Shown: one piece after another, positions 28,996-29,641 of the stretch
How positions within the stretch are numbered: the first letter of the stretch is position 1
Layout: every line of letters begins with the position of its first letter
Assembly: GCA_018653485.1 (NCBI GenBank)
Contig: JABHZE010000001.1
Location: 1 to 64,000 of the forward strand
Length of the DNA: 64,000 bases
Direction: 5' to 3'
Source of the DNA: an archaeon
GTDB lineage: Archaea; Nanobdellota; Nanobdellia; Pacearchaeales; GW2011-AR1
Notes under the pieces: model-generated
What the model saw: only the letters and a program-made list of their open reading frames with translations
Told to the model about the DNA's origin: nothing
The model's database searches: none
Program-made: the position numbers and the translations under genes

Positions 28996-29033
28996 AGAAT
29001 ATCATAATAATCAAGATATTTAAAATATAGTAA

Positions 29034-29117
29034 ATGCCCCCAGAGAGATTTTATTCGTTTCCAGATTTTAAATAACAAAATACAATTTTATAAAATCTAA
29101 AAACTCACTCCCGACAC
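29034..29117 (-). pseudogene. Broken tRNA-Lys 3' part with a hairpin insertion
   Basis: ATGCCCCCAGAGAGATTT (29034-29051) is identical to the 3' end of the intact tRNA at 29146-29163. CTCCCGACAC (29108-29117) matches 29167-29176. Between them are 56 extra bases (29052-29107) replacing GAA in the intact gene, with inverted repeats AGATTTTA/TAAAATCT. Together with 29322-29485 this looks like the other half of a disrupted tRNA-Lys. Confidence 0.6.
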
Positions 29118-29146
29118 ATCGCTAGTTCAAATCTAATTAAAAAGAA

Positions 29147-29221
29147 TGCCCCCAGAGAGATTTGAACTCCCGACACCTGGCTTAAAAGGCCAGTGCTCTA
29201 ACCGGACTGAGCTATAAGGGC
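29147..29221 (-). tRNA. tRNA-Lys(UUU)
   Basis: Minus-strand 75-nt cloverleaf. Acceptor GCCCTTA pairs with TGGGGGC with two G-U pairs. D stem GCTC/GAGC. Anticodon stem CTGGC/GCCAG with loop CTTTTAA, giving anticodon TTT. Variable GTGTC. T stem GGGAG/CTCTC with loop TTCAAAT. Discriminator A; CCA is not encoded. It is intact and is surrounded on both sides by partial copies of itself. The 70 bp from 29215, which include its 5' end and 5' flank, recur at 29480-29549. Confidence 0.96.
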
Positions 29222-29321
29222 ATATCAGAGTCGCCTCTGATAATCATTAATATTAACTGGCATTAATGATACAAACAATAAAAATTATTACTTTAAAAAC
29301 TTTTGTAATTGAAGAAATAAG

Positions 29322-29485
29322 TAAAAGGCCAGTGATGTCAAAAACCCATATCAAGAAAGGTTTTTGATACCCCAAGAATTTAAAAAATTCTTGATGTCTA
29401 ACCGGACTGAGCCGAGTATTTACATCTTGACCAATTATTATAAAACAAAATCAAATAACAAGATGCAAATAGGAGCTTGTAAGGG
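29322..29485 (-). pseudogene. Broken tRNA-Lys 5' part with two hairpin insertions
   Basis: Fragments identical to the intact tRNA appear in order: TAAAAGGCCAGTG (29322-29334), TCTAACCGGACTGAGC (29397-29412) and TAAGGGC (29480-29486). They are separated by extra segments of 62 bp (29335-29396) and 67 bp (29413-29479). The first insertion holds TCAAAAACC/GGTTTTTGA and CAAGAATTT/AAATTCTTG hairpins and the second holds ATTTACATCTTG/CAAGATGCAAAT (11 of 12 pairs). It is too disrupted to give a cloverleaf unless the segments were spliced out; I see no obvious bulge-helix-bulge. Confidence 0.65.
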
Positions 29486-29641
29486 CATATCAGAGTCGCC
29501 TCTGATAATCATTAATATTAACTGGCATTAATGATACAAACAATAAAAACCAAAAAAACAATGTACTTTCAGCACTTGTTTTTAGGGTGTTCAAGGATAG
29601 AAAATATCCTTGACATAATTACTTTAAAAACTTTTGTAATT
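29480..29641 (+). repeat. Duplicated tRNA-flank block with a third hairpin insertion
   Basis: 29480-29549 repeats 29215-29284 exactly over 70 bp, and 29618-29641 repeats 29287-29310. A 68-bp segment (29550-29617) separates the two blocks in this copy only. It contains the perfect 9-bp hairpin TCAAGGATA-GAAAA-TATCCTTGA (29591-29613). The duplicated unit, without insertions, is about 139 bp long. Confidence 0.75.

Follow-up and report, generated by a model that had tools for sequence, protein, structure and literature searches.

A complete tRNA-Lys gene with the anticodon TTT (UUU in the RNA) lies on the minus strand at 29146-29222 of the window, the 64,000-nucleotide stretch of archaeal DNA analyzed here (ARAGORN; Rfam RF00005, 68.8 bits). 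Ordered pieces of a second copy of this tRNA flank it on both sides and are interrupted by four inserts, within a base or two of the positions given in the original prediction, which had described a tRNA-Lys embedded in a broken copy of itself. On the 3' side, the order along the tRNA strand is: intact tRNA-Lys, spacer, antisense T-arm, a copy of the variable region and T-stem 5' strand, a hairpin insert, and a copy of the T-loop end, T-stem 3' strand and acceptor 3' strand. The antisense T-arm, a reverse-complement copy from the same tRNA (29119-29134, plus strand; inverted repeat I5, 88% with 29158-29173), was overlooked in the otherwise correct description. The direct copy of the variable region and T-stem 5' strand (29107-29123, minus; repeat D5, 15/17) is separated from the copy of the T-loop end, T-stem 3' strand and acceptor 3' strand (29033-29051, minus; repeat D3, 19/19) by insert 1 (29052-29107, minus, 56 bp), a hairpin with GA/GA at its base that sits within the outer T-loop. 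The trailer, the antisense T-arm, the second variable region, T-arm and acceptor 3' strand, and the T-loop hairpin insert together form a 3' unit of class A (29034-29145, minus), which the covariance model R2, partly built from this very unit, matches at 29035-29145. The GA/GA hairpin base was considered by eye as a K-turn or H/ACA motif and discarded, as Rfam lends it no support.

On the 5' side, the intact gene is adjoined by the first copy of its upstream flank (29215-29325; repeats D1 and D2). Leader hairpins, the first with a CCAGTT-type loop, precede tRNA-Lys here (29223-29290) and at three further loci (L050, L048, L079); they recur in relatives, some of which have no broken copy. The outer 5' half starts with the anticodon-loop side (29322-29334, minus; repeat D8, 13/13), followed by insert 2 (29335-29396, 62 bp), which comprises two hairpins and carries GATGTC at both edges (29334 and 29393), i.e., the GACATC that had been predicted at both ends of one insert, read on the other strand. 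A D-arm piece (29397-29412, minus; repeat D4, 16/16) comes next, then insert 3 (29413-29479, 67 bp), a hairpin within the outer D-arm, and then the outer acceptor 5' strand with a duplicated upstream flank (29480-29549; repeat D1), identical to 29215-29284 at 70/70 positions, as predicted. The array ends in insert 4 (29550-29614, about 65-68 bp), a dispersed two-hairpin repeat ATCAAAAAAACAATG...TTGTTTTTAGGATGTTCAAGGATAG...CTATCCTTGACAT, whose empty site is the AAAAA/TTATTAC junction near 29284 in the duplicated flank. Both quoted inverted repeats, CAAGAATTT/AAATTCTTG and TCAAGGATA/TATCCTTGA, were found in the window.

A family of tiny mobile elements had been offered as one reading of the inserts, and it is supported in part. 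Inserts 1 and 4 do have relatives elsewhere, but the four are not one family. Insert 1, of the T-loop type, has structured relatives at six other tRNA-Lys loci, with which it forms a family. Insert 3, of the D-arm type, is matched in position and edge at the other Lys locus of the genome: its junction on the tRNA strand, ACTCG or CTCG followed by GCTCAG, is identical at tRNA-Lys(CTT) and in the sister genome G010. By eye, insert 2 looks like the two-hairpin type of tRNA-Gln and tRNA-Ser. Insert 4 is a dispersed repeat unrelated to inserts 1-3, with five other copies in the same genome (C6:86143, C6:64809, C3:226729, C2:17582 and C5:174176) and one in the sister genome (G010:C6:38624); its exact pattern is absent from the other 24 relatives searched. 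Judging from the surrounding sequence, the copy at C5:174176-174223 (L008, L013) appears to sit inside a 23S rRNA gene, and the rRNA of this genome may thus carry insertions too. Relatives also have tRNA-Lys sites that are empty.

The genome is a 930 kb draft in 6 contigs, of which the stretches around tRNAs and around matches were examined. A genome search with the locus finds the same layout at tRNA-Lys(CTT) (anticodon CUU) on contig C3, where the outer fragments match tRNA-Lys(CTT) and not the window's tRNA: each outer copy fits its own tRNA. More broadly, many different tRNAs are followed immediately by conserved cores (3' units), and some are preceded by structured units of a similar kind (5' units). 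Almost every 3' unit closes with a copy of the end of the tRNA next to it, and that tRNA itself stays intact. Fragments of a tRNA's own 3' end lie downstream in about a third of the 30 tRNAs of this genome retrieved with flanks (32 score above the Rfam cut-off): Phe, both Lys, Gly-GCC, both Gln, Arg-CCT, Asp, Cys, Glu-CTC, Ser and Leu-CAA. A search with the window's RNA polymerase subunit places the organism close to the Pacearchaeota, within DPANN, and yields 80 loci, many with a syntenic tRNA-Lys; about 10 of about 40 syntenic tRNA-Lys loci hold 3' units and others are empty, and genomes of the same genus add more occupied and empty sites. Two public MAGs (L109, L125), labeled Patescibacteria and bacterium, look mislabeled: their RNA polymerase genes are archaeal and share 66% and 82% identity with that of the window.

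Further away, no convincing 3' unit turned up in 37 tRNAs, most of them sampled from families elsewhere in the class or order. The exact class D pattern (see below) has no match in 56 genomes of the family, one per genus, or in viral contigs; at this strictness class D was met only in the genus and in one genome of the same order (G023, L138). In phage records, tRNA genes alone were matched. Matches of R2 in other genomes of the family are a mix of real units (e.g., in G045, G047 and G073) and hairpin-only matches that probably arise by chance. In another genus of the same family (G031, L261), tRNA-Cys is preceded by two tandem 5' units.

To what extent tRNAs are flanked by pieces of themselves was counted in a sample of 205 distinct tRNAs from the window's genome, G010, G012, G015, part of G022 and the polymerase-linked loci, against a control that gave each tRNA the flanks of tRNAs for other amino acids. 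In 40 of 201 tRNAs, a stretch of at least 10 nt from the tRNA's last 24 nt is found again within 300 nt downstream, vs. 8 of 1005 (0.8%) in the control, and these repeats are therefore not due to chance. For the 5' end, a stretch of at least 12 nt from the first 26 nt is found again upstream in 18 of 199 tRNAs, vs. 12 of 995. Copies on the wrong side, a 3' end upstream or a 5' end downstream, stay at the control level. Fragments of the 3' end are thus a downstream feature and those of the 5' end an upstream one, and the intact gene lies inside. Few decayed own-end repeats are seen.

Class D was traced without recourse to the own-end repeat, with the covariance model R1, built from six units and run on 15 genomes of the genus. 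Fourteen matches with E≤3.5e-5 were examined (two more of similar strength, both in G012:C70, lie outside this set): in 13 of them the distance to the same-strand tRNA in front is 9-48 nt, in the remaining one it is 182 nt. These tRNAs include Lys, Ile, Leu, Met, Gly and Arg, among others; the two-hairpin core is conserved. At least 10 nt of the adjoining tRNA's own 3' end closes the core in 11 of the 14, or 12 counting L301; as four of the matches are among the six seed units, this agreement is partly by construction; the remainder, in G009, G011 and G013 along with one in G008, do not depend on the seeds. Two loci do not fit fully: L286 lacks the own-end repeat, and in L301 only the T-loop piece reached the count. 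A weaker match behind tRNA-His is closed by the same kind of own-end repeat. Some tRNA names come from ARAGORN intron calls and may be off, e.g., L285 and L293 are called Ser-GGA, yet their ends match Ile-GAT.

The clearest junctions have the form A-insert-A (L282, L284, L285, L292, L293, L295, L300), where A starts at tRNA position 61 (near it in L292), spans 23-44 nt and reaches into the trailer. Across 55 units, the start of the repeat lies 8-21 nt ahead of the tRNA end (mode, 14), and its right edge falls anywhere from 2 nt short of the tRNA end to 46 nt past it. In most members of class D the left edge of the repeat coincides with position 60/61 of the tRNA, where T-loop and T-stem meet. 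This edge is thus largely constant in class D, and the other varies (about 10-46 nt), giving repeats of 10 to over 40 nt, as would be produced if the first cut were precise and the second variable.

The units are folded as well as bounded. Structure is much stronger in 3' units than in trailers that lack a unit (mean z of -2.9 vs. -0.4), and in 31 of 40 cases their sense strand gives a better fold than the antisense strand (p=2.5e-4), as holds for the tRNA itself; the 5' units are structured, with z of -3.5, but without strand bias. In class A, represented by seven aligned units, all at tRNA-Lys loci and the window's included, 13 of 22 pairs have changed on both sides, with U-G pairs contributing to the covariation. 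The covariation score of 0.548 compares with 0.211 in shuffles, none of 500 shuffles reaches it, and it drops to 0.05-0.14 when the structure is slid along the alignment. The middle of a 3' unit is complementary to the T-arm of its own tRNA more than units of other tRNAs are (Fisher, 2.9e-7), and the direct T-arm piece is likewise specific to the own tRNA (1.6e-4). The corresponding antisense test in 5' units gives no significance, partly because most of the 5' units found sit at tRNA-Lys. Rfam 15 reports only tRNA above the gathering score in the window and at five unit-bearing loci. A switch to a "long tRNA", in which the 5' acceptor strand pairs with the outer copy, was entertained on the grounds that the partition-function fold prefers it in nearly all combinations of a tRNA and a 3' unit; units with a shuffled middle behave alike (206/216), and the claim is withdrawn as an effect of the energy model.

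Occupancy differs between close relatives. Among 25 isoacceptors that the window's genome shares with G010, seven are occupied in the former only and three in both, and tRNA-Lys(TTT) holds different unit classes in different species. Units also occur in tandem, at tRNA-Gln, at tRNA-Lys(CTT) of G010 and at tRNA-Asp of the window's genome. The tRNA-Asp array (L033) runs through tRNA, unit, a 234-codon ORF (631-1335 of the locus, minus strand), repeat, second unit, repeat, a near-copy of the first unit and repeat; it is the sole array with an ORF in this genome, and its order is that of integron-like cassettes placed at a tRNA. In G014 (L141, 1609-2442), a tRNA-Lys is followed by a 152-codon ORF, a 42-nt copy running from the anticodon loop to the 3' end, and a class A-like unit; from its layout this may be a small integrated element with an SSV-like repeat. 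Neither ORF has a match in Pfam. The window's genome encodes three tyrosine recombinases (C4:140279, C5:7621 and C3:313668), all outside units. One of them, 351 aa long, is found beside tRNA-Glu(TTC) (C3:313668-314156, L129), with no repeat of that tRNA's end within 1.5 kb.

The broken copy is read here, with modest confidence, as the footprint of miniature insertion elements, gene-less and hairpin-forming, which target the ends of tRNA genes in Pacearchaeota. This reading is favored by conserved cores behind unrelated tRNAs, repeats matched to each tRNA, empty sites, tandem arrays and the switching of classes at one locus; the cores span about 55-105 bp and the units mostly 55-130 bp. The strand-biased structure, the covariation and the antisense T-arm suggest that a folded single strand, RNA or ssDNA, matters. 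A putative recombinase or endonuclease would recognize the T-arm (3' units) or the acceptor/D-arm end (5' units), and the element itself would be recognized as a folded single strand of DNA or RNA; one of its ends would be joined precisely at the tRNA junction and the other at a variable place, duplicating the tRNA end. In the window, a 3' insertion would have been accompanied by a tandem duplication of the promoter and the 5' half, and the outer 5' copy would also have received an insertion in its D-arm, a second one of the two-hairpin type and the dispersed repeat, producing the nesting. A more specific version, a tRNA-seeded integron-like or target-primed system, is entertained only tentatively: gene-less folded-strand elements would be aimed by pairing of the antisense T-arm with the tRNA gene, insert at a fixed position, and build arrays before or behind tRNAs, occasionally with a gene. 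Several points weigh against insertion elements: no mobilizing enzyme is linked to the units, the three tyrosine recombinases included; a free or excised form is not seen; and an internal antisense T-arm that matches each tRNA is hard to obtain by plain insertion. The strand bias suggests RNA or one DNA strand rather than ordinary double-stranded transposition, the 5' units being unbiased.

The main rival, somewhat unlikely but to be taken seriously, holds that the units are functional RNAs, i.e., structured pre-tRNA leaders and trailers with a role in regulation or processing, selected to keep the tRNA-end copy and the antisense T-arm. Strong structure, a sense-strand bias like that of tRNA, covariation with U-G pairs, and T-arm pieces, both antisense and direct, that specifically match the adjoining tRNA all speak for it. 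The scarcity of decayed copies fits selection for function and, equally, fast turnover. A functional RNA is harder to reconcile with the patchy presence among sister genomes, the different classes at one tRNA and the tandem copies, or with repeats that extend past the tRNA end; the fold preference for a long tRNA, reproduced by shuffled controls, gives it no evidence, and the five unit-bearing loci yield no Rfam match to such an RNA. Local replication errors, partial tandem duplication combined with template switching at the palindromic T-arm and no mobile element at all, would account for the direct-inverted-direct order of copies, the tandem partial copies at tRNA-Gly and the recent flank duplication in the window. 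This origin is doubtful, given homologous non-tRNA cores behind different tRNAs in different genomes, the precise right junction, and sampled tRNAs from other families of the class in which no units are found.

Noncanonical introns of archaeal tRNAs are known at D-arm, anticodon-side and T-arm positions, and inserts in the window lie at such positions (for reviews, see PMC4090602; PMC4033280). The original prediction had offered an exotic multi-intron tRNA as its second option; on an intron reading, the outer copy would be the true exon and the hairpins would be spliced from a nested pre-tRNA. This is very improbable: the inner gene, complete and continuous, can do without splicing, insert 4 is located beyond the tRNA, and at most affected tRNAs only one end, 3' or 5', has left a fragment. 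No bulge-helix-bulge was recognized in the partition-function fold, judged by eye only. An assembly artefact or a mixture of strains is less probable still. Repeats are prone to misassembly, and this assembly is a draft of 6 contigs, but covariation is conserved, and the recurrence of the same architecture on contig C3 and in MAGs assembled independently by other groups excludes an artefact of the window's contig.

tRNA genes are favorite landing sites of archaeal mobile DNA, and the small DPANN genomes are usually seen as streamlined. In this lineage of tiny, symbiotic archaea, hairpin families that recur and come and go between species suggest an undescribed class of miniature tRNA-end elements that spare the tRNA. 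If mobile, the units are among the smallest site-specific elements known, with an antisense T-arm that hints at base pairing as the means of targeting; if functional RNAs, they represent an overlooked layer of pre-tRNA biology in DPANN archaea. In either case they bear on the origin of disrupted, split and permuted tRNA genes, and the junction at tRNA position 60/61 together with pairs of occupied and empty sites makes the question directly testable. Novelty is provisional: the open-access literature (most subscription papers lie outside it) holds related ideas, above all in Caldiarchaeum, where an integrating element left fragments of tRNA 5' or 3' ends (PMC3293823), and nothing on such units.

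Several known systems share features with the units. Archaeal integrative elements that target tRNAs with SSV-type or pNOB8-type tyrosine integrases similarly duplicate the tRNA end and leave the tRNA intact, and the combination by which they are recognized, a direct repeat of the tRNA end beside an intact gene, is seen at the units. By contrast, these elements carry integrase genes, extend over kilobases and have repeats such as the 44 bp of SSV1, while the units are gene-less, built of hairpins and endowed with an antisense T-arm; an integrase inside the unit is ruled out, as 55-130 bp leave no room for a gene. Most casposons of family 2 insert in tRNA genes, and the 14-15 bp target duplication in A. 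boonei (PMC6614799) resembles the 14-nt repeat frequent in class D units, which prompted a casposon origin to be considered. The A. boonei casposase recognizes TCAAATC, located 8 bp upstream of the duplicated segment (PMC6614799), whereas the class D repeat begins directly after the T-loop and its other edge varies. Cas1 (PF01867) is absent from the window's genome and 13 other genomes of the genus and present only in G011 (the genomes are 60-87% complete, so absence is no proof); a casposon origin was rejected on this geometry and the missing Cas1. MITE-like elements are, like the units, short, gene-less, palindromic and recurring, with target duplications; the units differ in lacking conserved terminal inverted repeats (by eye), in targeting tRNA ends and in having a repeat of variable length on one side. 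A MITE was set aside since the left ends of class D differ (by eye) and the repeat length is not constant. Integrons, which include archaeal ones (PMC9668308), offer an analogy. Their attC sites are structured recombination sites, conserved in structure more than in sequence, that form tandem arrays. The units may work in a like manner. In integrons, the insertion site is attI; in the units, this place is taken by the tRNA end, with an ORF in a single array of the window's genome, that at tRNA-Asp.
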